The notes under the pieces are model-generated. The model did no database searches, was not told the origin of the DNA, and saw nothing but the letters and a program-made list of their open reading frames with translations. A program made the position numbers and the translations under genes. Positions 1 through 46,789 of a stretch of DNA of 56,213 nucleotides are shown piece by piece (positions within the stretch are counted from its first letter, which is position 1; every line of letters begins with the position of its first letter). The stretch is taken from positions 1 through 56,213 of the forward strand of contig NZ_GG695977.1 in NCBI RefSeq assembly GCF_000159955.1, read 5' to 3'. This stretch comes from Paenibacillus sp. oral taxon 786 str. D14 (GTDB taxonomy: Bacteria; Bacillota; Bacilli; Paenibacillales; Paenibacillaceae).

Positions 1-330
1 GAATTTATCACATGGTTGGGACAAGCTGATAAGGTAAAGTACATAGTGTCTGTTTGTACAGGCTCGCTTTTACTAGGAGCTGCAGGCTTTTTAAAGTACA
101 AGAAAGCAACAACACATCCCAATGCTTATGAATTACTAGAGCCATATTGTGAAGAAGTGATTAAATCAAGAATAGTTAAGGATGGGAATCTCATAACTGC
201 CGGGGGAGTATCGACATCAATTGATCTTGCTTTATATATTGTTAGCCTATTAGTTAATAAGGATGCTGTAGAAATCATCAAGAAACAAATTGACTATCCA
301 TATGAATCACAAGGAATTGTTGAGGTGTAA
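1..330 (+). CDS. DJ-1/PfpI family protein, 5' end outside window
   Basis: The reading frame is open from base 1 to TAA at 328-330; the N-terminal part lies outside the window. The visible 109 residues contain VCTGSLLLGAAGFL, the nucleophile-elbow cysteine region of the DJ-1/PfpI superfamily, followed by KKATTHP and the AGGVSTSIDLAL helix typical of the isonitrile-hydratase/ThiJ-like branch. Such proteins are small cytosolic hydrolases or glyoxalase/chaperone-like enzymes; the substrate here cannot be told. It is the cargo of cassette 1: the stop codon is 25 bases before the left box of the first attC-like repeat. Family is fairly certain, function is not. Confidence 0.8.
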   Translation, partial: EFITWLGQADKVKYIVSVCTGSLLLGAAGFLKYKKATTHPNAYELLEPYCEEVIKSRIVKDGNLITAGGVSTSIDLALYIVSLLVNKDAVEIIKKQIDYPYESQGIVEV

Positions 331-355
331 GTGAATCGAAGAGAACGGGTACTTC

Positions 356-519
356 ATCTAACACCGTATTCACGCATCGCAGCCTGGTGGCTGCTCGGTC
401 CGCCCGAGGAATTTCGAAGAAGTGGATCCAAGCGGACAACCCTGCGAACCTAACCGCGTCGCGGCCGGCTCCTCCGGAGCCTTAAGATTCTCGGGGTCGT
501 GAATACACAGACGTTAGAC
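356..519 (+). repeat. attC-like site 1
   Basis: The left box is ATCTAAC (356-362) and the right box GTTAGAC (513-519). The inner stem is GTATTCACG with CGTGAATAC, separated from the boxes by unpaired ACC on the left and ACAGAC on the right. A second pairing joins CCGC (about 400) with GCGG (about 452). The inner part carries a CCTAACCGCGTCGCGGCCGG block shared with sites 5 and 6. The right box belongs to cassette 2, whose far end (1511-1528) is its reverse complement. Confidence 0.85.
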
Positions 520-550
520 GAAATACTTGTAAGTGATCAGAACATTAAAA

Positions 551-1450
551 TCAGCGCATGATTTTAATTATCTCTAAATGCGCCTTTCTTAAGCCATTAG
601 TATTCTTGTACTTTTCGTTAAGATCTTTCTCTGAGTGGGCTGGTTTTAACAAATTAGTTCTGCGTGCAACATAGCCATTACTAATGTAATAGTTAAAGGT
701 CACTACTGGAGCATTTGCATTTAGGACGGATTCAATAATTTTATACAATTTCTCTGGGTGCCTTGTTATCATCTTGAAAGAGTCCGAAAAGAAAAAGTGC
801 TGTTTCCTGTTTCTAATACTTTCAAGTATTTTGTTTAAGGTATGATTAATAGTGGGGTCAATTCCACTTTGAACTTCTACAAAGATATCCGATGCATTAC
901 TTTTGTTGGTAGTATAGTCATTACTTTTCAAAATTTCTTTGGCCCCAAATGTTGTAAAATTAGTACATTTACTAAGTTTTCTCATTACATACCAGGCTAG
1001 AGGATACTCAAATTGAATCTTTTCGAAAGGATCCACTAGAGGCTTAGTGATTTGTTGGGATGCTGACAGCAGGTCGTTATTTGAGAAGAAAGTAATAGCA
1101 TCCGAAGTAATTTTCTTAATTTGGTCATCTGAGATAATAGGATTTGATAAACCAAGACTTTTGGCTGCAGATCTTGTGCTTGAAAGGTCCTCTAGCAAGC
1201 TATTTCTAATACAAACTACCACAAGTGCCCTTATATTTATATCACTCACAGGGCTATAGTATGTGGCTTCTTCAATTCCATGTAGGAGTATTGTTGAACG
1301 GAATTCTTCATCACTCCAACGATAAATTATTGACGATAACCTTGAGTTGATATCAGCGCAGACTTTCGAGACAACTTCTGTATTTGCACCAAATTCTAAA
1401 AGTAAAGGGGTTAAATTATGAGTTAAATAATCGTCCACAAGATTTCTCAA
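551..1450 (-). CDS. Uncharacterised protein, reversed cassette gene
   Basis: A 299-residue protein that I do not recognise. It starts at TTG (1448-1450), placed by GGAGG eight bases upstream on the minus strand. The sequence looks soluble and mostly helical, with no signal peptide or membrane segment and no motif I can name. It is the only gene of cassette 2 and the only one in the array running against the cassette direction, so it cannot use a promoter at the integrase-proximal end and should carry its own, just upstream in 1451-1510. The AT-rich base use matches the other cassettes. A role in defence or stress is possible from context only. Confidence 0.75.
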   Translation of the reverse strand: MRNLVDDYLTHNLTPLLLEFGANTEVVSKVCADINSRLSSIIYRWSDEEFRSTILLHGIEEATYYSPVSDINIRALVVVCIRNSLLEDLSSTRSAAKSLGLSNPIISDDQIKKITSDAITFFSNNDLLSASQQITKPLVDPFEKIQFEYPLAWYVMRKLSKCTNFTTFGAKEILKSNDYTTNKSNASDIFVEVQSGIDPTINHTLNKILESIRNRKQHFFFSDSFKMITRHPEKLYKIIESVLNANAPVVTFNYYISNGYVARRTNLLKPAHSEKDLNEKYKNTNGLRKAHLEIIKIMR

Positions 1451-1521
1451 GATATTACCTCCAAGGACATTAAGGATTTAATAATAACTATATCAGTAAA
1501 CTCAAAGAGGACAAGTACTTC

Positions 1522-1682
1522 GTCTAACACCGTATTCACGCTGCAGGGCTAATGCCCCTTGGTCTGCCCGCGGCATTTCGAAGAAGGGGATCAGGCAGAC
1601 AACCACTGCGAGCCTAAGTCTGGCGACCCGTTCCCGTTGTTCACTTAAGGCTCTCGGGTTCGTGAATACAAGAACGTTAAGT
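1522..1682 (+). repeat. attC-like site 2
   Basis: The left box is GTCTAAC (1522-1528) and the right box GTTAAGT (1676-1682). The two boxes do not match each other. The left one pairs with the right box of site 1 (GTTAGAC) and the right one with the left box of site 3 (ACTTAAC). This is what cassette exchange predicts. The inner stem GTATTCACG/CGTGAATAC is perfect, and TCTGCC pairs roughly with GGCAGA further in. Confidence 0.85.
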
Positions 1683-1768
1683 GAAATCTCCCTTTAAAGA
1701 CAATACGAACAAAATAATATCCATTAGGTTATAATGAAAACATAATCTTGAAACAAGGAGGGAATTCA

Positions 1769-2056
1769 ATGAAGCGAGAAGATATTGAAAACAAGTTAAG
1801 GATTGAAAAGAGATTTTTGATGGATCGTTTTTATGTTTCGAAGATAGGATTATTTGGTTCTTTTGCTCGAGATGAACAGACGGAAACAAGTGATATCGAT
1901 TTATTAGTTGAATTTTCTCGTCCAGTAGGATTTGAATTTTTGGATTTGAAGGATTATTTAGAGTCTGTATTTGGCAGAGAAGTCGATCTTGTAACCCCTA
2001 ATGCCATTAAATCTTATATGAAAGATGAAATTCTTAGCGAGGTACAATATCAGTGA
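1769..2056 (+). CDS. mntA: MNT-type nucleotidyltransferase antitoxin (MntA-like)
   Basis: A 95-residue minimal nucleotidyltransferase. The GS-X10-DXD signature is present as GSFARDEQTETSDIDLLVEF (about residues 32-51), with the two catalytic metal-binding aspartates. MntA antitoxins inactivate their HEPN partner by adding AMP to a tyrosine in the partner's active site. The start is ATG 1769 because AAGGAGGG lies seven bases upstream. The stop overlaps the GTG start of the downstream HEPN gene (GTGA), implying translational coupling. Together they form the cargo of cassette 3, and toxin-antitoxin pairs are common passengers of sedentary integrons. Confidence 0.9.
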   Translation: MKREDIENKLRIEKRFLMDRFYVSKIGLFGSFARDEQTETSDIDLLVEFSRPVGFEFLDLKDYLESVFGREVDLVTPNAIKSYMKDEILSEVQYQ

Positions 2057-2400
2057 AGCGATCGGTTAATGTACTAATGGACATTCTAGAGTCAATTAAT
2101 CGGATAGAAACTTATCTCGGTGCCGTTAAATATGATGAGTTTTTAGCTAATCAAATGCTTCTGGATGCAGTAATAAGAAACTTAGAAATTATCGGAGAAG
2201 CCGCTAGAAATCTTAGCGATGAAGTTAAGAGGAAGTATCCAGAAGTCCCTTGGAAGAATATGATCGGACTAAGGAATATCTTGATTCACGAATATTTTGG
2301 AATTGATGAAAGTATCGTTTGGGAAGTAGCTACAAGAAACCTAAAAGAAGTTAAACCCATTATCGTGAGGGCAATTCAAGAAGAGGGAGACTTCACTTAA
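2053..2400 (+). CDS. hepT: HEPN ribonuclease toxin (HepT-like, DUF86)
   Basis: A 115-residue DUF86/HEPN protein, the likely toxin of the pair. The motif RNILIHEY near residue 78 fits RX4HXY exactly: Arg and His form the RNase site and the Tyr is the residue AMPylated by MntA in characterised pairs. It starts at GTG 2053, overlapping the mntA stop by four bases. The TAA stop (2398-2400) lies inside the left box of attC-like site 3 (ACTTAAC), and the last residues are encoded by the cassette-terminal inverted repeat. The coding sequence therefore runs right to the recombination site. Confidence 0.9.
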   Translation: MKRSVNVLMDILESINRIETYLGAVKYDEFLANQMLLDAVIRNLEIIGEAARNLSDEVKRKYPEVPWKNMIGLRNILIHEYFGIDESIVWEVATRNLKEVKPIIVRAIQEEGDFT

Positions 2401-2542
2401 CACCGTATTCACGCTGCGAGACTTAATTGTCTCTTGGTTGTCAGACGAATAACCGAAGAAGCAAGCTCAGACAACAAACGACCCAGCCTAAGATAAGAGC
2501 TATCTAAGGCTGGGTCGTTTCGTGAATACAAAAACGTTATCT
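2395..2542 (+). repeat. attC-like site 3 (identical core to site 7)
   Basis: The left box is ACTTAAC (2395-2401) and the right box GTTATCT (2536-2542). Bases 2398-2540 are identical over 143 positions to 5932-6074 in site 7; the cassette-specific outer bases differ. Inside is a strong hairpin, ACGACCCAGCCT paired with AGGCTGGGTCGT and followed by TT, which could also act as a weak intrinsic terminator for the upstream gene. Confidence 0.85.
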
Positions 2543-2586
2543 GCAATTCCTCGAAAGCAAATTATTAATAGAGAGACGTGGAATGA

Positions 2587-3114
2587 ATGACAACATATTA
2601 TTTAGTTCGCCATGGCGAACCATTATGGGAAATTAACGAAATATATAAACTTAGAGGACATGGACGGGATTTAGTCCCACTTACAGAAGGCGGTATCAAA
2701 CAAGTACATAGTGCATCACGAGATCCAAGACTAAAAAAGGGAAATATTATAATAAGTTCTCCATATACAAGAGCAATGCAGACAGCCGCGATCCTGTCCA
2801 AAGAACTAAAGCTAGAGCTAAGAGTCGAATTTGATCTAAGGGAATGGCAGCGAGATCTCACCTTTCAATATGATTCATTAGAGCAATTAAGAGAATTAAG
2901 TATAGATTATGATAATCATAAAGGAATTTATCCAGCAGGAGAAACGAGGAAATGGGAATCTAAACAAATGATGAAAGATAGAATGGACAAAGTGATTGAT
3001 AAATACAAAACATATGACTATGTGATTGTAGTAGGACATGGAATGGCATTTAGGACACAGTACGAAATCGAGGAGATTCCACATGCTTCAATCATCGAGA
3101 TAACAAAGAATTAG
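2587..3114 (+). CDS. Histidine phosphatase family protein
   Basis: A 175-residue phosphoglycerate-mutase-like phosphatase. The N-terminal YLVRHGEP holds the RHG motif whose histidine becomes phosphorylated; SSPYTRAMQTA holds the second arginine, and VVGHGMAFR near residue 148 holds the second catalytic histidine. The substrate cannot be inferred; related small enzymes act on sugar phosphates, nucleotides or phosphoproteins. The last residues are short compared with many relatives but the catalytic set is complete. It is the sole gene of cassette 4. The start ATG 2587 has only a weak GTGGAA ribosome site, so an alternative start is possible. Confidence 0.9.
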   Translation: MTTYYLVRHGEPLWEINEIYKLRGHGRDLVPLTEGGIKQVHSASRDPRLKKGNIIISSPYTRAMQTAAILSKELKLELRVEFDLREWQRDLTFQYDSLEQLRELSIDYDNHKGIYPAGETRKWESKQMMKDRMDKVIDKYKTYDYVIVVGHGMAFRTQYEIEEIPHASIIEITKN

Positions 3115-3149
3115 TACTTGAAAGTATTTCATTGGAGTCGAGGAACAGC

Positions 3150-3311
3150 AGATAACACCGTATTCACGCTGCGGGCCTAACGGTCCTTGGTCTGCAAGAG
3201 GGTTTTCGAGGAAGTGGAATCAGCAGACAACCCTGCACTGGCAAAGTCCGTCGGACCCGGGGCTAAAGCCTCTTAAGCCAGTGAGGGTTCGTGAATACGA
3301 GAACGTTAGCT
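3150..3311 (+). repeat. attC-like site 4
   Basis: The left box is AGATAAC (3150-3156) and the right box GTTAGCT (3305-3311). The left box pairs with GTTATCT at the start of cassette 4, and the right box with AGCTAAC at the end of cassette 5. The inner stem is GTATTCACG/CGTGAATAC. The GGGCC-taa-CGGTCC hairpin near 3173 and the TCTGC/GCAGA pairing around 3191-3227 resemble site 2. Confidence 0.85.
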
Positions 3312-3349
3312 GACATTGCTGCGAAAACACAAAAGAGCGAGATGATAAA

Positions 3350-4270
3350 ATGTGGCTCTCACAATTAAATCAAGTATTTAGCAATAGGGAACTAGCTATT
3401 GGATTTTGGATATTGATTTTTATTTTGTATGCACTCTCTTTACATAATGTAAGAGCACAAATTCCAGGTATGCTAAAAATTATGTTTAGTAGAAAGTTAG
3501 TATATTGGTATATCACTATGTGTATTTATTACTTGTTAATGATCTATATTTTAATAAAGATTGGATTCTGGGAATATAGACAGTTGAAAGACACACTTGT
3601 ATGGTTTTTCGTTACCGGTGTAATTTCTGCGTCATCTGCAATCGGAAAGGCAAAAGATATTAGCTACTTTTATAATATGATTAAAGAAAATGTCAAAATA
3701 GTCGCTATCGTAGAGTTCATTACTAACCTTTATAGTTTCAGAGTAATATGGGAGATTGTAATTGTGTTTCTTATTATCGTTTCTTCTATATTTGTAGGAT
3801 TTATAGAACATTCGGCAGATTACCAAAATAGAAATGCAATCATAAAGAACTTCTTCAACGCTATATTATTTATAATAGGGTTCATTGTAATAATTCACTC
3901 AATAAGATCAATTATATTAGGCTTAGATCAAATTAACGTAAGTGAATTAATTAAGGACTTTCTTTTACCGCTACTCCTTTCATTGATGTTTGTAATCTAC
4001 ATATATTTTTTTGTACTCTATGCTGCGTATGAGATATTCTTTATAAGACTTAGCTTTAAGAAAACCATAGATGATAATTTAAGAGGTAAATTAAAACTAA
4101 GGATTCTTTTCTTCTGTAACATCAATATTAAGAAAGTTAGTAACTTTGTTCAGAATAGTCAAGTATTAACTAGCTATGTAACAAGAAAATCGGATATAAA
4201 AAAATTATTTGATAATTATAGAAGAAATACCTCGCGGGAAATTTCAAGAGAAGGCAGCAACATCAGCTAA
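3350..4270 (+). CDS. Multi-spanning membrane protein of unknown function
   Basis: A 306-residue protein that I do not recognise. It has about six to seven hydrophobic segments: near residues 15-32, 48-70, 78-95, 140-158, 172-192, and a long one near 203-232. A basic, probably cytoplasmic C-terminal tail of about 70 residues follows. No enzyme motif is visible. It is the only gene of cassette 5. The TAA stop (4268-4270) lies within the left box of site 5 and the last six residues are encoded by the cassette-terminal repeat. The base composition is strongly AT-rich compared with the core genome to the right. A defence effector with a membrane domain is one possibility, but nothing in the sequence proves it. 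Confidence 0.8.
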   Translation: MWLSQLNQVFSNRELAIGFWILIFILYALSLHNVRAQIPGMLKIMFSRKLVYWYITMCIYYLLMIYILIKIGFWEYRQLKDTLVWFFVTGVISASSAIGKAKDISYFYNMIKENVKIVAIVEFITNLYSFRVIWEIVIVFLIIVSSIFVGFIEHSADYQNRNAIIKNFFNAILFIIGFIVIIHSIRSIILGLDQINVSELIKDFLLPLLLSLMFVIYIYFFVLYAAYEIFFIRLSFKKTIDDNLRGKLKLRILFFCNINIKKVSNFVQNSQVLTSYVTRKSDIKKLFDNYRRNTSREISREGSNIS

Positions 4271-4431
4271 CAATGCATTCACGCATCGGGTCGGCTTCGC
4301 CGTCCCACGGTCGCCCGAGGCATTTCGAAGAGGCTATCACAGGCGACACACCCGCACCACCTAACCGCATCGCGGCCGGTTCCTCTGGAGCCTTAAGGTG
4401 GTGGGGCGTCGTTAATGCAAGAACGTTAGAC
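4265..4431 (+). repeat. attC-like site 5
   Basis: The left box is AGCTAAC (4265-4271) and the right box GTTAGAC (4425-4431). The inner stem is varied on both sides: GCATTCACG faces CGTTAATGC, so the T-A pair of other sites is replaced by C-G. That compensatory change supports real pairing. It shares the CCTAACCGCATCGCGGCCGG block with sites 1 and 6. Confidence 0.85.
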
Positions 4432-4521
4432 GAAATTATTGCAATACAGTAAAAACCTCACATCAAATGACTTTAAATTTGTTGATTTAAATCGAAATAA
4501 TAATTTGATTGGAGGATTACT

Positions 4522-4806
4522 ATGCCGTATTTTGAAAGAGCCAAAAAACTATCAATCTGGCTTATTTTAGTAGGGGTTGTATTCTTTTTCTTAGGTATTA
4601 TTTTCTTTAGTACAAGCAACTTTAATGAGCTTATAGATTACGATATTAAAGATAAATTGCTTGGAAAACTTATAACAATATTTTCATTTCTAGTTTCTAT
4701 ATTTCTTATTTTATTGGGAATTATATTGAAGATTATTGCTAAGGATGCAAGAGAAGATTTACTTGTTATTGAGAATAGAATTAGAAATGAAATGAAAAAT
4801 GAGTAA
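4522..4806 (+). CDS. Small two-helix membrane protein, unknown
   Basis: A 94-residue protein with two clear membrane helices (about residues 11-33 and 48-71), a short loop between them and a charged C-terminal tail (REDLLVIENRIRNEMKNE) that may form a coiled coil. I do not recognise a family. The start ATG 4522 is well supported by GGAGG eight bases upstream. It is the sole gene of cassette 6, one of the smallest units (about 0.6 kb), with about 90 bases of leader between the right box of site 5 and the start codon. Confidence 0.8.
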   Translation: MPYFERAKKLSIWLILVGVVFFFLGIIFFSTSNFNELIDYDIKDKLLGKLITIFSFLVSIFLILLGIILKIIAKDAREDLLVIENRIRNEMKNE

Positions 4807-4847
4807 TAAGAACATTAATGCAGGCATATCAAGATGGCAATAACTTC

Positions 4848-5038
4848 GTCTAACACCATGTTCACGCTTCGGGGCATTCGCCCCTCGGTCCGGCAGGAGT
4901 AAGATGTGGATTCAGGGATGTAATTGGCAGCTGCTGGGAAGCAGAATCAGCCGGACACATCCGCACCGACTAACCGCATCGCGGCCGCCACTTCGTGGCT
5001 TAAGTCGGTGGGACGTCGTGAACACGGAAACGTTAGAT
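4848..5038 (+). repeat. attC-like site 6 (long subtype)
   Basis: The left box is GTCTAAC (4848-4854) and the right box GTTAGAT (5032-5038). The inner stem reads TGTTCACG/CGTGAACA, again a paired change (A-T to G-C) compared with other sites. The middle carries a longer insert with CCGG near 4900 and CCGG before ACACATCC, shared with sites 9 and 10. At 191 bp it is the longest copy. Confidence 0.85.
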
Positions 5039-5075
5039 GAAATGTCACAATATGTTTTTGAGGGTGTGATCATTG

Positions 5076-5903
5076 GTGTCAGACTTGACAAACATTGAAA
5101 AAATAAAACTCGAGAGAATTTTTAATATGGGGGGTGGATATGTACTGAATTTTTCTAATAATAGTTTTCAGCAATCCGTATTTGATTCTGTGAATATTGA
5201 TGTTTATGACCCCAAATATTCTATCTTTGGAGACTCAAAAGCAAATAGACTTAGAGCAATATGGAGATTGGAGAACAATTATATTGTTTCTGTCCTTACC
5301 ATTGATTTGTTGAACTATTGGAAGGAAATGAAAGCAAGGTTTGAGGAAGAAATAAGCGATAAAGAACAAGAGCTGTTTGATGAATGTATCAAGATCGCAG
5401 AAAAACTTAAACGTGAAAATATCTCTGAACACTTAGCTGATTTGACTGAACCCCAGATTGATGATATGAACTTTAAACTCCTTGCCAAGAATATAAGAGA
5501 GGCAATTGAAAAAAATGAACCAGAAGTAGCGTTAGATAGACTTCATACTTATATGGTCAAATATATAAGAAGTCTGTGTGATCGGCATGGGATATCGTAT
5601 GACAAGAGTAAACCGCTTCATAGTTTTTATGGAGAGTATATAAAATTCCTCAAAAAGAATGGATATATAGAATCATCAATGACAGAAAGAATACTAAAAA
5701 GTTCGATATCGATACTGGAAGCTTTTAATGAAGTAAGAAATGATAGGAGTTTTGCTCATGACAACAGTATTTTGAATTATCAAGAAAGTTTATTAATCTT
5801 TAAGAATATTTCAAGCATTGTTTCATTTATAGAATCAATTGAGTCTAGCAAAGTCAAAAATAAAGTTATCTCAGAAGAAGAATGGAATGAAATATTATCG
5901 TAG
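5076..5903 (+). CDS. Abortive-infection-like protein (Abi C-terminal type)
   Basis: About 275 residues. The C-terminal third has a helical pattern with HSFYGEYIKFLKK, ISILEAFNEVRNDRSFAHDN and a final helix pair, resembling the abortive-infection C-terminal domain found in phage-exclusion proteins. The NDRSFAHD stretch is the best-matching part. The N-terminal half is charged and helical and I cannot assign it. Start choice is open: TTG 5073 or GTG 5076, both after GAGGGTG; GTG gives the better spacing. It is the only gene of cassette 7. A role in phage defence is an inference from the domain resemblance and the mobile context. Confidence 0.7.
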   Translation: MSDLTNIEKIKLERIFNMGGGYVLNFSNNSFQQSVFDSVNIDVYDPKYSIFGDSKANRLRAIWRLENNYIVSVLTIDLLNYWKEMKARFEEEISDKEQELFDECIKIAEKLKRENISEHLADLTEPQIDDMNFKLLAKNIREAIEKNEPEVALDRLHTYMVKYIRSLCDRHGISYDKSKPLHSFYGEYIKFLKKNGYIESSMTERILKSSISILEAFNEVRNDRSFAHDNSILNYQESLLIFKNISSIVSFIESIESSKVKNKVISEEEWNEILS

Positions 5904-5928
5904 TACTTTCAATGAAGAGTGACACTTC

Positions 5929-6076
5929 ATATAACACCGTATTCACGCTGCGAGACTTAATTGTCTCTTGGTTGTCAGACGAATAACCGAAGAAGCAAGC
6001 TCAGACAACAAACGACCCAGCCTAAGATAAGAGCTATCTAAGGCTGGGTCGTTTCGTGAATACAAAAACGTTATAG
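5929..6076 (+). repeat. attC-like site 7 (identical core to site 3)
   Basis: The left box is ATATAAC (5929-5935) and the right box GTTATAG (6070-6076). The left box differs by one base from the ATCTAAC expected from the start of cassette 7 (GTTAGAT). The core 5932-6074 is identical to 2398-2540, including the ACGACCCAGCCT/AGGCTGGGTCGT hairpin. Two perfect 143-bp direct repeats 3.5 kb apart suggest a recent duplication or gene conversion. Confidence 0.85.
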
Positions 6077-6375
6077 GAAATCAGCGAAAAAAAGGAAAAA
6101 ATCAAAAGAGATTTCTTCTTAGTTAGTAAACTACGGGCAAGGGCAGAATAGTTCAATCATTTTTTTGAATACCTAGGCATATGGGAAATTACGAAGTCCA
6201 CTAAAGCAAATGATTGTTTGATAGAAACAATGTCCGAAGTAATTAAAAGACCGAAACAATGTCAGGTCAGTTTGGGTTGTATACCAGCTTAAGCTATCCC
6301 TTAGACGTTCGCACCCCCGTTTGAAAAGTTTAAAGGAATAAACGTCAGACGCACACAATGAAAGGGAGTGAAGTT
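6077..6375 (+). other. Long leader of cassette 8, no gene seen
   Basis: About 300 bases lie between the right box of site 7 and the first gene of cassette 8. I find no convincing coding frame and no further attC-like repeat. The composition changes from AT-rich on the left to GC-rich just before the gene, which could mark a join between captured sequence and older cassette sequence. Confidence 0.5.
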
Positions 6376-7044
6376 ATGGAATTTCTGCTCACATCTGGAG
6401 GCATCAGTAACAAAAGCATACACGACGCGCTGGTTGGCATGCTGGGCAAGCCGATCTCCGACTCCAATGCCCTGTGCATCCCCACCGCGATGTACGGACA
6501 CCCCTGGGTCGGCCCCGGCGTCAAAGCCTGGGAATTCATCAGCGGAAATTCCGAGGATCACATGGTCGGCCTGGGCTGGAAGTCCGTCGGCGTGCTGGAG
6601 CTTACAGCGCTGCCAAGCATCGGCGAAGACCGCTGGGTGCCGCTGGTCCAGAAGACGGACGTCCTGCTAGTGGCGGGCGGGGACGCCCTATACCTGTGCC
6701 ACTGGATGCGGCAATCCGGGCTGGCAGACCTCTTGCCGTCGCTGCACACAGTCTATGTGGGACTGAGCGCCGGGAGTATGGTGATGGCACCTAACATCTT
6801 GGAATTTTTCGTTGGCTGGACTCCGCCCACCGGTGGCGATGAAGCGCTGGGACTGGTTGATTTTGCAATATTTCCGCATCTGGACCACGAGATGCTTCCG
6901 GAAAACACCATGTCAGCTGCAGAGAGATGGGCCGCCGGGATGCAGGGGCCGGCGTATGCGATTGATGATCAGACCGCCATCAAAGTGACCGACGGAGCAG
7001 TCGAAGTTGTTACCGAAGGGCATTGGAAACTTTATTCGCCCTGA
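6376..7044 (+). CDS. Peptidase E-like (S51) / class I glutamine amidotransferase-like protein
   Basis: A 222-residue protein. VLLVAGGDALYLCHWMR (about residues 98-114) and GLSAGSMVM (about 133-141) match peptidase family S51, where the serine in the G-x-S-A-G elbow is the nucleophile and the fold is that of class I glutamine amidotransferases. Bacterial members cleave Asp-X dipeptides or have unknown roles. The start is ATG 6376, because AAAGGGAGTG sits six bases upstream; ATG 6358 has no ribosome site. It is clearly more GC-rich than every other array gene and resembles core-genome codon use. It lies in cassette 8, so it may have been captured recently from a chromosome. Confidence 0.85.
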   Translation: MEFLLTSGGISNKSIHDALVGMLGKPISDSNALCIPTAMYGHPWVGPGVKAWEFISGNSEDHMVGLGWKSVGVLELTALPSIGEDRWVPLVQKTDVLLVAGGDALYLCHWMRQSGLADLLPSLHTVYVGLSAGSMVMAPNILEFFVGWTPPTGGDEALGLVDFAIFPHLDHEMLPENTMSAAERWAAGMQGPAYAIDDQTAIKVTDGAVEVVTEGHWKLYSP

Positions 7045-7103
7045 TATTACACCGCTGTTAACATATAAGATAACTTACTTGGTTGGTGGAACCTTGGTGA
7101 GTC

Positions 7104-7247
7104 TTGACGAAGGCGATTTTAGAAGAGTTTGTGAGTAATTGGTTACCCGGACTAGAAAAAGATGAGTATAAACCATTGCTTTTTTGGAACCGAGAGGATT
7201 CTTCTATTTTAGAGGTTATGTTTCTGCTGAACGAATTGGAGAACTAA
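7104..7247 (+). CDS. Small ORF, unknown, possibly 5' half of a split gene
   Basis: A 47-residue frame from TTG 7104 to TAA 7245-7247, encoding TKAILEEFVSNWLPGLEKDE near its start and ending in LLNELEN. It is AT-rich like the other cassette genes and is followed after one base by another AT-rich frame in a different phase. The two may be coupled small genes or one gene broken by a frameshift. There is no strong ribosome site. I do not recognise a family. Confidence 0.4.
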   Translation: MTKAILEEFVSNWLPGLEKDEYKPLLFWNREDSSILEVMFLLNELEN

Positions 7248-7248
7248 C

Positions 7249-7578
7249 TTGAGATTTATCTCTCACTTCTTAATTGCAACAATAATTGAAGTATTTAAAT
7301 CAAAGGGAATTACAAAAATCCAATACTCTGAACCAATATTCGATACAAGTGGCGAAATACTAGTAGATGATATTACAAATAAAAACTTCTATGAAATGGC
7401 ACCTTCAGAGATTATTGTAACGTACGAGACTAATGATACAGCATTTTTAAGTGTTCATGATTCATTGATTACACTTATGTTAAGCAATGATATAAACACG
7501 AAAGAAATAATTACTAGTGAAGGTTGGGAAGCGATTGAATGTAATGAAGCTACAATGATAAATTGGTATCTTGAGTAA
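7249..7578 (+). CDS. Small unknown protein in cassette 8
   Basis: A 109-residue frame starting at TTG 7249, one base after the stop of the preceding small frame. It looks like a soluble alpha/beta protein, with FLIATIIEVFKSKGITKIQY near the start and an acidic C-terminal part ending in TMINWYLE. I do not recognise the family. It ends about 40 bases before the left box of site 8. No good Shine-Dalgarno is seen, which fits either translational coupling or a frameshifted pseudogene together with 7104-7247. Confidence 0.55.
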   Translation: MRFISHFLIATIIEVFKSKGITKIQYSEPIFDTSGEILVDDITNKNFYEMAPSEIIVTYETNDTAFLSVHDSLITLMLSNDINTKEIITSEGWEAIECNEATMINWYLE

Positions 7579-7620
7579 TAAACTTCGGTATATAGATGAT
7601 TCAAAGAAGTCGCTGACATC

Positions 7621-7780
7621 CTATAACATAGTATCTACGCTGCGGGATACGCCCTTGGTTCGCAAGAAGAAATAGCAGAGAAGTTAAATCAGCTCACAAC
7701 CCTGCGAGACTAAGTCCGTGGGACCCAGTCGCTATCGCTCCTTTAAGCCTCTCGGGTTCGTAGATACAGTAACGTTAGCT
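7621..7780 (+). repeat. attC-like site 8
   Basis: The left box is CTATAAC (7621-7627), pairing with GTTATAG at the start of cassette 8. The right box is GTTAGCT (7774-7780), pairing with AGCTAAC at the end of cassette 9. The inner stem is GTATCTACG/CGTAGATAC: two adjacent bases differ from the usual GTATTCACG and both are compensated on the other arm. This double covariation is the strongest support for selected base pairing. Confidence 0.85.
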
Positions 7781-7822
7781 GAAATTGCTGTAAAGAACGA
7801 AATTAAAAGGGAGGGAAACTCA

Positions 7823-8602
7823 TTGAATCCCGATGAGTGGTTCACAATTGAAGAAATCCACCCAATGACTTTTGCCATAAGTGAATATGGCCATTGGGAG
7901 AAGGTGCATTCATATTTAGTTATTGGTGATGAATACGCTGCGCTAATAGATTCAGGAATTGGAATAGGAAATATCAAAAGTGTTGTTGATCAATTAACTT
8001 CTTTGCCTATTAAAGTCTTAACAACACACGTTCATTGGGATCATATTGGGGGTCATGGGCAGTTTAATGAAATATACGTACATGAGTTAGAGAATGATTG
8101 GTTAGAGAATGGAATACCTGGACTTCCTATTGAGGTAATACGTCGTGATGTAGGTAGAGATATTACAAAACCGTTACCAGTTGATTTTAGAATAGAAGCT
8201 TATGAGCCATACAGGGGTAAGCCCACTGCCGTATTAAAGGATAATCAAACGATAAATTTAGGAAACAGAACATTAACTTTCTTACATACACCTGGGCATT
8301 CACCAGGGCATCTATGTATTTATGAAGAAGAGCGCGGCTATTTGTATACTGGAGACTTAATCTACAAGGGAACTTTGTTTGCATTTTATCCAACGACAGA
8401 TCCATTGTTGTTTATCAAATCTGTAGAGAAGATAAGTCGAATCGATCATATAACAAGAATACTGCCGGGACATAATGAATTAGACTTGAGCAAGGATTTT
8501 ATAATTGAGTTGAATAAAGCCTGCCAGGAGCTGTTTAATAAAGGATTAGCCAGGCATGGAACAGGGATACATGATTACAAAGATGTAAAGATCTATTTTT
8601 AG
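7823..8602 (+). CDS. MBL-fold metallo-hydrolase
   Basis: A 259-residue metallo-beta-lactamase-fold protein. THVHWDHIGGH (about residues 70-80) gives the HxHxDH zinc site, and HTPGHSPGHLC, YTGDLIYKGTL and LPGHNEL supply the remaining zinc ligands in the usual order. The substrate is unknown; glyoxalase-II-like, lactonase-like and thioesterase-like members share these motifs. The start is TTG 7823, supported by GGGAGGG five to eight bases upstream. The longer open frame back to 7718 would begin inside attC-like site 8 and is rejected. It is the only gene of cassette 9. Confidence 0.9.
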   Translation: MNPDEWFTIEEIHPMTFAISEYGHWEKVHSYLVIGDEYAALIDSGIGIGNIKSVVDQLTSLPIKVLTTHVHWDHIGGHGQFNEIYVHELENDWLENGIPGLPIEVIRRDVGRDITKPLPVDFRIEAYEPYRGKPTAVLKDNQTINLGNRTLTFLHTPGHSPGHLCIYEEERGYLYTGDLIYKGTLFAFYPTTDPLLFIKSVEKISRIDHITRILPGHNELDLSKDFIIELNKACQELFNKGLARHGTGIHDYKDVKIYF

Positions 8603-8626
8603 TAATTCGTAGAAGACAGCAAATTC

Positions 8627-8804
8627 AGCTAACACCATATTCGCGCATCGGGGGACGAGCCTCCTCGGTCCGGACCGGAGTCGGAAGTGGATTCGGGGAT
8701 GTCATTGGCAGAAGCAGGGAAGTGAATTCAGCCGGACACATCCTTCCCCCTAAGATAGGAGCTATCTAAGGGGGAAGGACGTCGTGAATACACGAACGTA
8801 ATCT
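8627..8804 (+). repeat. attC-like site 9, right box mutated
   Basis: The left box is AGCTAAC (8627-8633). The right box reads GTAATCT (8798-8804) where GTTATCT is expected from the end of cassette 10 (AGATAAC). The T-to-A change hits the GTT core at the presumed cut site. The inner hairpin TTCCCCCTAAGATAG / CTATCTAAGGGGGAA is a near-perfect palindrome, and the loop bases TAAGATARGAGCTATCTAA are shared with sites 3 and 7. Confidence 0.8.
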
Positions 8805-8841
8805 GTAATAATCGCAAAATTCATAAGAGCCAAGAGGAAAA

Positions 8842-9219
8842 ATGAAAAAGAAAAATAATACACCAAGACATAAAAGACTTAATCAAGAAGGCAGACTACA
8901 AGCTGCGAAGCATTGGTTAGTTAAGTACAATGGAAAGAATCTTGTTAGAGGATATAGCAATCATTTTGCTGTTGATCTATTGTGTGCAGTAAGAGAACTA
9001 GAAAAACTGGGAATCCAAATTGATAAAGAATATAAGAAGCAATTGGAAATAGATTTACAAAATAAAATTAGAAGGACAGATATGAAAAAGAAGAAGATAA
9101 TAGAAAACCAAGAGATTGAACGATTATTATTTTCTGAAATGGATGAGGATTATGAAATAGAAGAATATATAGAACTGCCGTTTGGAAGAGGGGACGAAGA
9201 TGGCGATTACTACAGATAA
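8842..9219 (+). CDS. Small conserved-looking protein, unknown function
   Basis: A 125-residue basic protein with acidic C-terminus. The first 75 residues (RHKRLNQEGRLQAAKHWL, then YNGKNLVRGYSNHFAVDLL and AVRELEKLGIQID) resemble an uncharacterised family I recall from diverse bacteria, possibly with integron cassettes among its carriers; I cannot verify this here. The start ATG 8842 follows AAGAGG. The TAA stop (9217-9219) lies in the left box of site 10 and the last residues GDYYR are encoded by the cassette-terminal repeat. It is the sole gene of cassette 10. Confidence 0.75.
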   Translation: MKKKNNTPRHKRLNQEGRLQAAKHWLVKYNGKNLVRGYSNHFAVDLLCAVRELEKLGIQIDKEYKKQLEIDLQNKIRRTDMKKKKIIENQEIERLLFSEMDEDYEIEEYIELPFGRGDEDGDYYR

Positions 9220-9321
9220 CACCATATTCACGCATCGGGCATTCGCCCTCGGTCCGGCACGAAGTTAGGAGTGGATTCGGAGAGCATTTCAGTAGCAAGG
9301 AAGCGGAAGCAGCCGGACACA
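9214..9321 (+). repeat. attC-like site 10, truncated
   Basis: The left box is AGATAAC (9214-9220), followed by the left stem ATATTCACGC and the long-subtype middle (TCGGTCCGG ... AGCCGGACACA). Similarity to sites 6 and 9 stops near 9321. No right stem CGTGAATAC and no GTTA box follow. The array's right border has been cut here. Confidence 0.8.
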
Positions 9322-9344
9322 AAACATTTTTTGGAAGAAGAGTA

Positions 9345-9470
9345 ATGGAAGAAAAAAACAAAATATTTCATTGGCTAATTGAAATAGCAATACTTTTAGG
9401 AGTATGGGGCTTTGAAAATCCATTTATTACCTATAATAACATATTGTTTCAATCGCTGCTAATAGTCTGA
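9345..9470 (+). CDS. Short hydrophobic ORF, possible cassette remnant
   Basis: A 41-residue frame (ATG 9345 to TGA 9468-9470) with one hydrophobic segment, HWLIEIAILLGVWGF. It follows the broken attC-like site and ends where the IS3 remnant begins, so it may be a small membrane protein or the surviving N-terminus of a cassette gene cut by the insertion. The ribosome site GGAAGAAGAG lies about ten bases upstream. I do not recognise a family. Confidence 0.4.
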   Translation: MEEKNKIFHWLIEIAILLGVWGFENPFITYNNILFQSLLIV

Positions 9471-9487
9471 GGATGCGTACTGGCTGC

Positions 9488-9800
9488 CGCGATCAGAATG
9501 ATGCAGCCACGTTCCCTTTGGGCTTCTGAAGGCGATACGCCTGATCCAGGGCCTTCAAACAAAGCTCCTTCGTCATTCGTTCGTCCATATGGAAGCCGAC
9601 AATTTTACGCGTGCAGGGGTCCTCCAGACCTGATTCGGCTTCTCCGCTACTCTTGAATTCGGCGATCCAGCGGTACAACGTACTCATGCAGCCCCATTTC
9701 TCGGGCTACCTGCGCCACCGTTTTCCCTTCTTCTTGGATGAGTCTTATGGTTTGAAGTTTGAATTCCTTGGTCGAAGAAGGCGAATCAATTATTGATTTG
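9488..9800 (-). pseudogene. IS3-family transposase remnant
   Basis: Minus-strand fragments of an IS3-family element. 9800-9690 encodes an OrfA-like helix-turn-helix start (KEFKLQTIRLIQEEGKTVAQ, then VAREMGLHE). After a frameshift, 9687-9493 continues with STLYRWIAEF and then jumps to OrfB-like IVGFHMDERMTKELCLKALD near the catalytic core, ending in QKPKGN. Most of orfB is missing. The remnant cannot transpose. It sits directly at the damaged end of the cassette array. Confidence 0.75.
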
Positions 9801-9951
9801 GGTCACTCTGCATTATTGTGGGATTGGTCTTTCTATTTCTAGATTTCAATACACAAAATCATCGACGTAATTTGTAGGTTCAATAAAGAATATTAGTTCA
9901 TGCATGCAAGAACAATAGATTCAATTACTGCAGAATGTATGGGAGATAAAT

Positions 9952-10419
9952 ATGGATGTGAAGATTAGATTACTTAAGGATCACGAAGATATTCCCCTTG
10001 ATCTATTACTCTTAGCTGATCCATCGCAAGAGATGATCGAGGAGTATTTGCAAAGAGGTCAGTGTTATGTTGGTTTGCATGATAGAGATAAAGTTATTGC
10101 TGTCATTGTATTACTACAAACACGACCAGGAACATTGGAGATTGTTAATATCGCGGTGCGTGAAGACTTTCAGGGAAGAGGAATCGGGAAGAAACTGATC
10201 CATTTTGCAATTGACAAAGCAAGAGAACAAAACGTCAAAACGATTGAAATAGGGACAGGAAACTCAAGCATAGGTCAGCTATTCCTTTATCAAAAATGTG
10301 GATTCCGAATTACTGGAATCGATCGGGATTTTTTTATAAGACATTATCCTGAAAAGATTTATGAGAACGGAATTCAGTGCAGGGATATGATCCGGTTAAG
10401 TCTTGATTTGATTGAATAA
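9952..10419 (+). CDS. GNAT family N-acetyltransferase
   Basis: A 155-residue GNAT protein. EIVNIAVREDFQGRGIGKKL (about residues 63-82) is motif A with the acetyl-CoA-binding Q/RxxGxG/A loop, and LFLYQKCGFRITGIDRDFF is the C-terminal motif B region. The substrate is unknown. The start ATG 9952 follows GGGAGAT. It lies outside the recognisable cassette array, between the IS3 remnant and core genes, and is still AT-rich. Confidence 0.9.
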   Translation: MDVKIRLLKDHEDIPLDLLLLADPSQEMIEEYLQRGQCYVGLHDRDKVIAVIVLLQTRPGTLEIVNIAVREDFQGRGIGKKLIHFAIDKAREQNVKTIEIGTGNSSIGQLFLYQKCGFRITGIDRDFFIRHYPEKIYENGIQCRDMIRLSLDLIE

Positions 10420-10469
10420 CTTGAAGACTCCGTAACATCCTTCAGGTTTCATCTTATGGAGGTGACCAA

Positions 10470-10943
10470 TTGAAGAAGAGAGTGATCATAACATTATGTT
10501 GTATATTCCTTATTGTAATTCTTTATCTCACTTATGACTTTCATCGTCCCCGTCATGTAGAAGTAAGTCTGAGAAGCACTATTTACTCGGTAGAAACGGA
10601 GTTCGAAAAGCAAACGCAAATATCAATCATCGGCGAGCACTATAAAGTGCTTTTTGGGAAAGATAGGTTCATCGGAAAAATGATTGTAGATAACGATTTG
10701 GTCTATGATATCAAGCTCAAGAGAGAAGGCAACAAATATTTTGAAACACTTACAAAGAATAATGAGTTTCATGTACTAAATTCAATCGGCTCCATAATGA
10801 CATCCGCTGATTTTAATAAGGTATGGTTACAATTGAATGATATAAATGAGAGATATCATCTTACTGAGGGATATGTATCAGGACCAGCGGGAAATAAAAA
10901 TGAAGCAAACCAGGTTGCTAGAAACATCCTTGAGGGAATGTAA
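10470..10943 (+). CDS. Membrane-anchored protein, unknown
   Basis: A 157-residue protein with one N-terminal hydrophobic segment (about residues 5-22, ITLCCIFLIVILYLTY) that may be a membrane anchor or signal peptide, followed by a soluble extracytoplasmic domain. It starts at TTG 10470, fixed by a strong GGAGGTGA seven bases upstream. I do not recognise the family. The next gene follows after 17 bases, so the two are probably co-transcribed. Confidence 0.75.
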   Translation: MKKRVIITLCCIFLIVILYLTYDFHRPRHVEVSLRSTIYSVETEFEKQTQISIIGEHYKVLFGKDRFIGKMIVDNDLVYDIKLKREGNKYFETLTKNNEFHVLNSIGSIMTSADFNKVWLQLNDINERYHLTEGYVSGPAGNKNEANQVARNILEGM

Positions 10944-10960
10944 TAAAAAGGAGCTTATCA

Positions 10961-11350
10961 ATGATCCATCATGTCGAAATCAATGTTTCCGACCTCCAAA
11001 CAAGTAGAGCGTTCTGGGATTGGATTTTTCAAGAGCTTGGATATTCGGTCTATCAAGAGTGGGACCAGGGAGTGAGTTGGATCAGCGGAACTACATATAT
11101 TGTCTTTGTACAAACAGGAGAAAAATACTTAGATATTCCCTATCACCGAAAAAGAGTGGGATTAAATCATCTTGCTTTCCAAGCTAATTCCAAGGAGCAG
11201 GTAAATAAGATTACGAATCAGCTTGAAGATCGTGGGGTTACTATTCTGTATAAAGATAGACATCCTTATGCAGGTGGACCGGATCATTATGCGGTATTTT
11301 TTGAGGATCCTGATCGAATGAAGGTAGAAATTGTTGCTCCTTTGCATTAG
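10961..11350 (+). CDS. VOC family protein (glyoxalase/bleomycin-resistance fold)
   Basis: A 129-residue VOC protein. MIHHVEINVSDLQTSRAFWD is the first beta-alpha unit with the metal-site His, and the second half has GLNHLAFQA and ends in FFEDPDRMKVEIVAP, where the Glu is a usual metal ligand. Such single-domain proteins dimerise and can be metal-dependent isomerases, dioxygenases or drug-binding proteins. Ribosome site AAAAGGAG is well placed. It is likely in one operon with the membrane-anchored protein upstream. Confidence 0.9.
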   Translation: MIHHVEINVSDLQTSRAFWDWIFQELGYSVYQEWDQGVSWISGTTYIVFVQTGEKYLDIPYHRKRVGLNHLAFQANSKEQVNKITNQLEDRGVTILYKDRHPYAGGPDHYAVFFEDPDRMKVEIVAPLH

Positions 11351-11690
11351 TAAGATTATTTTTATTTAATGAACACGGCTATTCAGGCAAGCAAGTGCAA
11401 GAGGCACATATGAAACTGGCGAAACACGGAATAAAATGGTCAAGTTTAGAACCCCCCAAACATTCAGGCGAGTTGAATGTATCCCTAATTCTGAATGCGG
11501 ATGAGGGCAATCCACGTGATGAAATGATCAAGAAATGGGATGCCAAACTCGACTTCTACCATTAAATCGGGTAAACTCACTCAGAAAAAATTAGTGTACG
11601 TCCGTGGGGATTACCAGCTTGAATTTATTTTTGATAGCAGTACGGACCTGAATCACATCCATTTAACTTACAAAGGTGCAAAGTAAAAAA
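11351..11690 (+). pseudogene. Decayed gene of unknown family
   Basis: Two plus-strand stretches in different frames appear to be one broken gene. The first, 11409-11564 with a few codons upstream, encodes KLAKHGIKWSSLEPPKHSGE, then LNVSLILNADEGNPRDEM and ends in KLDFYH. The second, about 11573-11686, includes KKLVYVRGDYQLEFIFDSST and ends HLTYKGAK. No intact start region is seen. The family is unknown to me. Confidence 0.45.
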
Positions 11691-11760
11691 GCAGCTTAAA
11701 CAACAAACGCCCCAGCCAAAGAGCGATCTAAGGCCGGGGCGTTTCGCTATATTCGTGCAT
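11691..11760 (+). repeat. Possible relic of an attC-like site (sites 3/7 subtype)
   Basis: The stretch GCAGCTTAAACAACAAACG, followed by CGCCCCAGCC ... GGCCGGGGCG and TTTCGCTATATTCGTG, matches the right half of sites 3 and 7 base by base with scattered changes, including compensatory ones in the hairpin (CCCAG/CTGGG to CCCAG/CCGGG). The outer boxes are gone. It may be a degenerate end of a formerly longer array, or a terminator of the same shape for the upstream genes. Confidence 0.45.
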
Positions 11761-11845
11761 TTAAGGAGGAAACCAATCCGGGTAAGAGGAACGCGGTGAA
11801 TTCTAGCTTCTTTAGATCTGCTTCCAACGATGAGCCTGTAATCAA

Positions 11846-12220
11846 TTATTGTCTAATAATAAGAATGTCTCTAGGTGGTCTTCCGGTGCGTTGGATTTCA
11901 GCGATCTCCGAGTTCGTCAGATTACGGCCAACTAAAATGAGCGAAGATGTCACGTTATTGAAGTTGAAATTGCCCAAGTTGGACACATTTTGACTGCCCC
12001 GGAATACCCGGAAGGAACCTTGAAAGTTCGTTCCCGAGAACAACACCAGGGTGACGCGAGAGCTTTGCACAATATTTCTGAGACGGAAGCTGGTAAGTGC
12101 ATTGTTGAATCTGAACGCTCCAAGATCGCGGACAGCGACCCCGCCGCGTCTGAAGAGAATCCGGCGGCCAGTAAAATTAGTACCTGACCATAATGCAAGA
12201 CGTACATCGCGGTTTGCCAA
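11846..12220 (-). CDS. Beta/gamma-crystallin-like protein
   Basis: A 124-residue protein of two tandem repeats. The first has LALWSGTNFTGRRILFRRG, then DLGAFRFNNALTSFRL. The second has LVLFSGTNFQGSFRVFRGS, then NLGNFNFNNVTSSLIL. The spacing of the aromatic-Gly corner and the N-N-x-x-S-S/F strand is that of Greek-key beta/gamma-crystallin domains, which in bacteria often bind calcium. No signal peptide is present, so it is probably cytosolic or spore-associated. The start is TTG 12220: AAAAGGAG is eight bases upstream, whereas GTG 12229 would overlap it. Confidence 0.75.
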   Translation of the reverse strand: MANRDVRLALWSGTNFTGRRILFRRGGVAVRDLGAFRFNNALTSFRLRNIVQSSRVTLVLFSGTNFQGSFRVFRGSQNVSNLGNFNFNNVTSSLILVGRNLTNSEIAEIQRTGRPPRDILIIRQ

Positions 12221-12449
12221 ATCTATCACTCCTTTTCATAGGGGTGATATAATATATTTCCGTTTCTATGAATCGGTGTGGACAAGAGAGTAGGGCACTT
12301 GTTTGATTTTAAGAGGAATCGAATTGCGGCTTTCCGAACTTGCTGATATACTTTTTCCTATTCGATCGCCCAAAATTCATTTTATCGTTTCTAATAACAG
12401 GCTTTGCACCTTATTGAATTGATTCATTACAAATAAGGGGCTGAAAGCT

Positions 12450-46467: not shown

Positions 46468-46654
46468 ATCGCATCCTCCTAGTCTGTCCAGTAATGCTGC
46501 ATTGGTATTGATGAATTCGTTGCCACTTCCGCTTATCTTGACACAGAATCAGGCCGAAATCAATACAGGACGGGTAACTCCTAGTTTACAGATTTGTACA
46601 AATTTAGGCTTGATGCCTGGGCGGAGTTGGTGTATGTTTATATCAATCGCATAG

Positions 46655-46745
46655 GGATACGGGGGCTTGAGCGAATCAGGCTGAGATAGCGGCATATTGC
46701 GCCGCGGACCGTTAATCTGATCTGGATAATGCCAGCGTAGAGAAT
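46655..46745 (+). ncRNA. TPP (thiamine pyrophosphate) riboswitch
   Basis: The conserved cores are present in order: CGGGGGC near 46659, CAGGCTGAGA (46677-46686), GCGGACC before the second core, and CTGATCTGGATAATGCCAGC with GTAGAGA close to the end. These are the thi-box signatures. A terminator follows, then the transporter operon. TPP binding should reduce transcription of the transporter. Confidence 0.93.
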
Positions 46746-46789
46746 CGATCGTCCGGGACTTTTTGTGCCTACGTGCGTCCCCGTGACCT

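Follow-up and report, generated by a model that had tools for sequence, protein, structure and literature searches.

An integron-like gene-cassette array in Paenibacillus sp. oral taxon 786, probably served by a tyrosine recombinase with a HARP-like N-terminal domain

A stretch of 56,213 nucleotides from Paenibacillus sp. oral taxon 786 str. D14 (contig NZ_GG695977.1, positions 1 to 56,213; hereafter the window) begins with what is very probably part of an integron-like array of gene cassettes. Between positions 356 and 9321 it carries nine complete attC-like sites (149-192 bp) and half of a tenth, with unrelated genes between them (Table 1); GC content is 38% over positions 1-9400 and 54% in the remaining window. 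An original prediction, made from the letters alone, had counted ten attC-like repeats: nine are complete sites, and the tenth, from 9214, is a left half only. Base 1 of the window falls within the array, whose head lies beyond the window start and was read in relatives, cited here by genome (G) and locus (L) numbers. The nearest relative compared, G001, is 99.5% identical to window 1-12787 (12.8 kb), and holds the nine window sites in the same order within an array of 12.

The sites combine outer GTTA/TAAC boxes and a covarying inner stem with an interior unlike that of classical attC. Site 2, for instance, reads TAACACC-GTATTCACG-[interior]-CGTGAATAC-AAGAAC-GTTA on its top strand. A site model, R1, was built from the nine complete window sites, and its scores on these nine are circular because they are its source. 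An independent test is given by full-length sites elsewhere: G001 has 12 (most of them common to the window), and 44 of 59 relatives, counting G001, show a match. Over 145 distinct aligned sites, 95.3% of cells are paired in the predicted pairing and 17 of the 26 pairs show double changes, while none of 500 shuffles pairs as well and no slide comes near either; this result is favoured by the fitting of the alignment to the model. Wobble pairs are biased to the bottom strand (242 G-U versus 42 A-C), and the bottom-strand DNA fold is the stronger one in 7/9 window sites, with a z of -2.96 on the minus strand versus -2.80 on the opposite strand at site 1. In the prediction the interior forms a junction of three hairpins, and the whole site, 51-218 nt in all, a cloverleaf with an extended outer arm; the shortest sites shown have one hairpin in 51 nt and three short hairpins in 97 nt. 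Outside the array, a GC-rich hairpin without boxes, at window 11693-11746, shows 87-89% likeness to the long arm found in sites 3 and 7.

The ends of the cassettes are private to each of them. They were analysed from R1 matches in 24 stretches (432 kb), comprising the window, G001, fourteen further genomes of the same order and a plasmid of Cohnella herbarum; of 283 matches at E <= 0.001, 279 were used and four partial-model matches excluded. Within each stretch the sites share a strand, L178 with one reversed site among 11 being the exception. These matches delimit 250 cassettes, which mostly hold one or two genes and a recombination site; among the 238 distinct ones, the longest open reading frame (ORF) is forward in 183 and reverse in 28, and 27 have none of 60 aa. 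A cassette starts with GTTAnnnGAAAnnnnnnn; the reverse complement of the end of that cassette is GTTAnnnGA(T/A)Gnnnnnnn, with identical n's. In 221 cassettes (exact GTTA/TAAC boxes, at most 3.5 kb) start and reverse-complemented end agree at 84-87% for positions 5-7 and at 66-90% for positions 12-18, compared with 23-53% between the two sides of one site and 26-52% after shuffling of the pairs. At least eight of the ten variable positions agree in 162 of 202 distinct cassettes, which carry 183 different codes; for shuffled pairs the share is 1.6%. In 191 of the 202, position 11 is an A in the start sequence and a G in the end sequence. The rule first proposed for the boxes, that the two ends of one gene are reverse complements, is therefore upheld, and extends beyond them.

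Cassettes recur in different contexts. The all-versus-all comparison of the 250 cassettes gave 96 pairs; of the 70 displayed, eight match the window with G001 in an unchanged context, and 14 pairs in different contexts were picked by hand. In all 14 the match begins at the first base of the cassette, with preceding sites 28-73% alike, and the surroundings are at the level of unrelated sequence (51-55% for the 300 nt before the preceding site, 50-55% for the next cassette). In nine of the 14 the match stops no more than about 6 nt short of the cassette end (92-100% over the whole); among these nine are one of 1074 nt (99% identical, G010 versus G019), one of 682 nt (99-100%, G001 versus two arrays of G010) and one of 522 nt (100%, G021 versus G011). 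Such comparisons indicate that the cassette is a mobile unit with defined ends (GTTA...[site]GTTA). The integron-like array of a separate lineage that had been proposed thus gains from nearly identical cassettes in other contexts, as well as from a recombinase distinct from IntI (see below), and the fixed synteny that would have spoken against it was not found between species in this comparison of contexts, the order of sites being kept in the near-identical G001. Some cassette pairs, such as cassettes 1 and 8 of L177 and a pair from L162/L175, have near-identical genes with differing site interiors, which seem to have been exchanged separately from the gene.

In G001 the sequence beyond window base 1 holds a cassette with DUF6809 and helix-turn-helix genes, a Nudix cassette, a methyltransferase cassette, an attI-like stretch and a gene for a 380-residue tyrosine recombinase that reads towards the array, then sdhB and sdhA (by eye). 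Of 25 recombinase loci, 18 have a site within 1.5 kb, which in every case lies 3' of the gene and has the same orientation relative to it. A GTTA/GTTG resembling a cassette start, as recognised by a loose pattern, follows the recombinase end by 27-193 nt in 19 of 20 loci read; the contig of L061 stops exactly at GTTA, and L063, L070 and L081 are unconvincing by eye. Between G010 and G019 the recombinase 3' end is 96% and the segment from stop codon to GTTA 98% alike, versus 52% for the first cassette; in five genomes of the G001 clade that segment is 63-88% alike and the first cassettes all differ (49-54%). Moreover, the first cassette of G014 opens with the same end code as a cassette inside the G021 and G011 arrays. 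The attI site that was to be sought left of base 1 has a counterpart in this stretch of the relatives, which looks like the entry point of new cassettes. Between the recombinase stop codon and attI, G001 has a promoter-like CTTACA-N17-TATAAT (one consensus match versus 0.5 in shuffles). The TATAAT is kept in seven loci, L056-L062; five close relatives also share its surroundings, and G036 does so more loosely.

The top NCBIfam match of the G001 recombinase is NF040815 (201 bits, cut-off 220), followed by the integron integrase profile TIGR02249 (188.6, cut-off 265); XerC and XerD profiles give 185.8 (TIGR02224, cut-off 335) and 182.4 (TIGR02225, cut-off 330), the last being passed by a Brevibacillus XerD control. 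Four IntI controls (L148, L154, L155 and L156) match TIGR02249 at 359-481 bits in a single stretch, whereas the recombinases of L064, L081, L083, L089 and L094 reach 207-234 bits in two stretches (no array was seen for L081 and L083), and none of the 59 relative genomes attains the cut-off. G001-type recombinases leave TIGR02249 positions ~182-230 unmatched, and a profile of 17 recombinases has 13 positions where IntI4 (2a3v) has 55 residues, skipping residues 183-237. Judged from these alignments, the recombinase is without the IntI-specific insert; the IntI with an extra alpha-helix that had been expected left of base 1 is not what heads the G001 array. Its structure model (mean predicted local distance difference test score, pLDDT, 80; predicted template modelling score, pTM, 0.52) has the Vibrio integron integrase 2a3v as top Foldseek match (E 2.7e-15). 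A quick tree of 81 proteins, drawn after leaving out named rows with an internal stop, shorter than 250 aa or on an author-chosen list, joins the 17 recombinases with those of UBA5388 and Paenibacillus sp. NFR01 in one group (Shimodaira-Hasegawa-like approximate likelihood ratio test, SH-aLRT, 87), apart from the four IntI proteins (SH-aLRT 100) and from XerC/XerD-like proteins.

The N-terminal 60 residues of the recombinase form a domain of their own. Thirty-two of these domains, taken from Bacillota, Bacteroidota, Spirochaetota and one Undinarchaeales metagenome-assembled genome (two pieces come from L088 and L097, genes with an internal stop), were combined in a profile that finds a single PDB chain below 0.001, the HARP domain of SMARCAL1 (4o66, E 4.6e-4), a weak match that suggests a HARP-like domain. 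HARP binds branched DNA and is akin to the XPB damage recognition domain.

The wide genome scans score few candidates per genome, so that their counts are lower bounds. R1 sites occur in at least 106 of 148 genomes of the G001 family, which the named carriers indicate to be probably Paenibacillaceae, and in at least 20 of 299 genomes drawn from the phylum. Two of these 20 (G001 and G125) are in the family; in the remaining 18, at least two matches are present in six genomes, and the other twelve have just one, often weak and perhaps due to chance. The recombinase (E <= 1e-45) is found in 54 of the 148 family genomes, all 54 with sites, and in none of the 42 site-free genomes (Fisher p 9.8e-11, a value that overstates independence because the genomes are related). 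In the sample of 59 relatives, a recombinase match at 1e-40 is found in 25, of which 23 have sites. Integrons had been supposed very rare or absent in Bacillota: this holds for classical ones in print, according to the accessible part of PMC9024848, and does not hold for the present system, which is common in this family.

Among named bacteria, the sites occur in Paenibacillus sp. NFR01 (L082, one site) and on a plasmid of Cohnella herbarum (Paenibacillaceae), NZ_CP051681.1, the only plasmid record matched; phage records gave no match to site 4, the sole site used as query. On the 174.5-kb plasmid record, 20 R1 sites form two groups flanking the record start (L181 5714-20173 and L182 6435-8607), among RelE/ParE, Nudix, methyltransferase and other small genes. 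Some genomes have at least two separate arrays and one recombinase match each, such as G036 (21 + 17 sites in L161/L162, 10 in L163), G010 and G019. In other Bacillota families, L183, L184 and L186 have a recombinase match and sites in the same layout; L185, L187 and L188 have no recombinase match in the stretch taken.

Over 80 named recombinase loci, R1 finds sites in only two, L082 and, weakly, L116, and is therefore blind to the repeats of Bacteroidota. L116 (Candidatus Peregrinibacteria, candidate phyla radiation) has two weak R1 matches of 30 and 19 bits at 6407-8394, near a tyrosine recombinase. Self-comparison flagged repeats in seven of the 80 loci, of which four were aligned; the other 73 have no such repeats in the stretch compared. 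Arrays of short, palindrome-rich repeats ending in TAAC/GTTA or CAAC/GTTG stand behind related recombinases in Rufibacter (L089 12035-20810), Flavobacterium enshiense (L094 11610-19500), Algibacter and Seonamhaeicola (L107 and L119), all Bacteroidota. Cassette ends of Rufibacter, the sole Bacteroidota array counted, obey a similar rule in 11 pairs, including a cassette that spans two, as one of the 13 repeats has no left box by the pattern, and the last repeat, cut at the wrong GTT. In the Bacillota loci L096 (Oceanirhabdus) and L131 (Firmicutes HGW-Firmicutes-8), recombinase relatives are surrounded by dispersed repeats, at 8 and 10 places respectively.

In the window itself, the cassette genes at 1769-2056 and 2053-2400 make up a MNT/HepT toxin-antitoxin-like pair, whose nucleotidyltransferase matches PADLOC PDC-S09 (2.4e-30). 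The cassette behind site 7 measures 1.7 kb with its site. Its peptidase S51 gene (6358-7044) is GC-rich in an otherwise AT-rich cassette and has no site after it, suggesting either later insertion or a cassette fusion. Adjoining the decayed array end, a possible rve-type transposase remnant lies at 9493-9687 on the minus strand (PF00665, E 2.5e-4, below cut-off).

Table 1. Features of the array part in the window. Bit scores are those of R1, which was built from sites 1-9 and is circular for them; for sites the strand is that of the fold.
Feature	Position	Strand	Evidence
3' portion of DJ-1/PfpI family cassette gene	1..330	+	PF01965 E 4.6e-13; complete (192 aa) in G001, L025:12461-13039 minus strand
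attC-like site 1	356..520	- (folded strand)	Boxes TAAC 359, GTTA 513; 132.4 bits
Cassette body: single reverse gene 551-1450 (299 aa, Pfam none)	513..1521	+	Ends 513-530 / 1511-1528 inverted copies, 94%
attC-like site 2	1522..1683	-	135.4 bits
Cassette body: nucleotidyltransferase 1769-2056 + HepT-like 2053-2400	1676..2394	+	PF01909 3.1e-17; PF01934 2.1e-31
attC-like site 3	2395..2543	-	133.3 bits
Cassette body: histidine phosphatase 2587-3114	2536..3149	+	PF00300 1.5e-20
attC-like site 4	3150..3312	-	157.3 bits
Cassette body: ORF 3350-4270 (306 aa, Pfam none, hydrophobic by eye)	3305..4264	+	Ends 3305-3322 / 4254-4271 inverted, 89%
attC-like site 5	4265..4432	-	132.9 bits
Cassette body: small hydrophobic ORF 4522-4806 (Pfam none over cut-off)	4425..4847	+	Ends 4425-4445 / 4834-4854 inverted, 90%
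attC-like site 6, long form	4848..5039	-	130.8 bits
Cassette body: gene 5073-5903, abortive-infection C-terminal domain	5032..5928	+	PF14355 4.1e-11; PADLOC none
attC-like site 7, short form	5929..6077	-	96% like site 3 over 168 nt
Cassette body: peptidase S51 gene 6358-7044 + DUF2711 C-terminal part 7249-7578	6070..7620	+	PF03575 2.9e-19; PF10924 1.1e-27
attC-like site 8	7621..7781	-	133.1 bits
Cassette body: metallo-beta-lactamase-fold gene 7823-8602 (TTG start chosen by author)	7774..8626	+	PF00753 9.9e-21, scan from 7718
attC-like site 9, decayed right box (GTAA)	8627..8805	-	103.9 bits
Cassette body: ORF 8842-9219	8798..9213	+	Pfam scan, none
Half site, array end, left half only	9214..9321	-	Left half aligns with others; 21.9 bits over 9214-9367

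In our view the window very probably contains part of an integron-like array. Circular cassettes would be inserted at the attI-like site, and exchanged between cassette sites, by the HARP-domain tyrosine recombinase that heads the array in G001; excision, integration and the part played by the recombinase are inferred from sequence. A wider view, that of a second kind of integron independent of IntI and spread over Bacillota and Bacteroidota, seems to us somewhat better than an even bet. Its HARP-domain recombinase would read single-stranded cloverleaf sites, in which a private code, present twice in every cassette, makes up the outer arm, and would provide gene capture to phyla thought to be integron-poor.

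In a circular cassette, the two halves of the private end would face each other and lengthen the outer arm of the site to ~18 nt. After insertion the arm would be split between two cassettes, so that the circular form would be the better substrate. The recombinase could pair the folded cassette site with attI, by analogy with the folded bottom-strand attC described in the accessible part of PMC8876359. One strand would then be exchanged at AAC|GTTA and insertion completed by replication, which would place the newest gene behind the promoter, while the HARP-like domain may hold the folded arm.

Several observations weigh against this picture. The recombinase lies outside the window and is observed in relatives only, and there is no cassette turnover between the window and G001. 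At E <= 1e-45, 52 of the 106 site-bearing family genomes have no recombinase, and two of the 25 recombinase-positive relatives, G028 and G045, have no R1 site; the contig of G028 ends 289 nt behind the recombinase gene, and the gene of G045 has three stops. The HARP match is weak (besides 4o66, PF07443 is found in 2/17 members, best E 0.017), and the model of the N-terminal domain (pLDDT 70) has no Foldseek match reaching 0.001, XPB chains being among the weak ones (E >= 0.12). In 5 of the 14 cassette pairs likeness ends before the cassette end or the site differs partly, and some other listed pairs begin inside the cassette, so homologous recombination also acts. A strand preference was expected in the private end pairs too and was not borne out: G-T pairs favour neither strand (66 versus 83), an absence of bias in the codes that the proposed mechanism leaves unexplained. 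Finally, compensated changes are few there: among 620 code positions of related cassettes (65-96% alike, in pairs that are non-independent), 368 are conserved, 206 differ at one end only, 20 differ at both ends and still pair, and 26 differ at both ends without compensation. With no strand preference and few compensated changes, conservation of the private ends may not come from folding.

The strong predicted folding of the sites, the 96% likeness of sites 3 and 7 and the five cassette pairs with early loss of likeness would also suit structured RNA elements or terminators, or a family of miniature inverted-repeat transposable elements (MITEs), with cassettes moved by homologous recombination alone. 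We regard this as very improbable. At gathering score Rfam places no family on the sites, its sole match being a thiamine pyrophosphate riboswitch at window 46649-46760, and the wobble bias is on the bottom strand, which is antisense to the longest ORF in 183 of 238 cassettes. Inverted ends private to each cassette are a pattern given by neither RNA elements nor MITEs; the 14 matches begin at cassette base one despite the poor likeness of preceding sites, and a recombinase stands at array heads. That recombinase might, however, be an unrelated Xer-like enzyme, with another enzyme moving cassettes in trans, as could be argued from the 52 genomes without a close match and from 12 Phage_integrase matches in G001. 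Adjacency and orientation in every one of the 18 loci with a site in reach, co-occurrence in 54/54 genomes and a conserved attI-like stretch directly 3' of the gene, with a changing first cassette, make such an arrangement very unlikely; moreover, integrase-less clusters are common in classical integrons as well, as the accessible part of PMC9024848 reports.

The classical integron itself, with a diverged IntI and ordinary attC sites, would account for the GTT/AAC outer boxes, the inner stem, the attI-like stretch, the cassettes, the promoter-like sequence and IntI4 as best structural match. It is hard to reconcile with the short segment that replaces 55 IntI4 residues in the 17 recombinases, with the unmatched part of TIGR02249, whose cut-off no relative reaches, and with the two-stretch scores of 189-234 bits of six recombinases against the single stretch of the four IntI; the quick tree, too, separates them, and we give this explanation very little credence. 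The integron-like system preferred here works like an integron, yet is not a classical one and falls outside IntI, because the recombinase has no IntI insert, scores below the IntI cut-off, bears a HARP-like N-terminus and reads towards the array, and because the sites are predicted to form cloverleaves with a lengthened outer arm.

If true, most of one family (106 of 148 genomes sampled, probably Paenibacillaceae) carry an integron-like system missed by the IntI cut-off, with dozens of cassettes in some genomes and one set on a Cohnella plasmid. Integrons are described as extremely rare in Bacillota in the part of the IntegronFinder 2.0 survey available to us (PMC9024848), where Limnochorda pilosa has the sole complete one in Firmicutes, besides a few integrase-less clusters. 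No description of such a system was found in a search of mainly open-access journal papers on integrons and HARP. The IntI insert would then be unnecessary for a cassette system, and this would be a second case of folded strands becoming recombination sites. It would also be a large mobile gene pool, with toxin-antitoxin-like, abortive-infection-like, acetyltransferase, phosphatase and Nudix genes.

Compared with known systems, the array resembles IntI integrons (class 1, the Vibrio superintegron and sedentary chromosomal ones) in its GTT..AAC outer boxes, inner stem, favoured bottom strand and integrase-less clusters, and in its cassettes of mostly one or two AT-rich genes, the majority in one direction, with an attI-like stretch beside a tyrosine recombinase gene. 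It differs in the recombinase, since IntI has an extra domain around patch III (accessible part of PMC9668308) and the present enzyme has no such insert and a HARP-like N-terminal domain instead, and in the sites, which are predicted three-hairpin cloverleaves of widely varying length. In class 1 integrons, Pc and PintI1 are opposed, as the accessible part of PMC8876359 describes, whereas recombinase and cassettes here read the same way. The private pairing of ~18 nt with A/G at position 11 contrasts with 11 and 3 nt in two classical cassettes (L155), too few to generalise. With XerA, XerC and XerD the recombinase shares the catalytic core, and NF040815 is its best NCBIfam match; unlike them, it falls below the XerC/XerD cut-offs, stands beside cassette arrays, has an additional N-terminal domain and forms a separate tree group. 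That N-terminal domain is linked to the HARP domain of SMARCAL1 by the profile match to 4o66, and to the XPB damage recognition domain by XPB chains among the weak fold matches; there the domain sits on helicases, here on a tyrosine recombinase.

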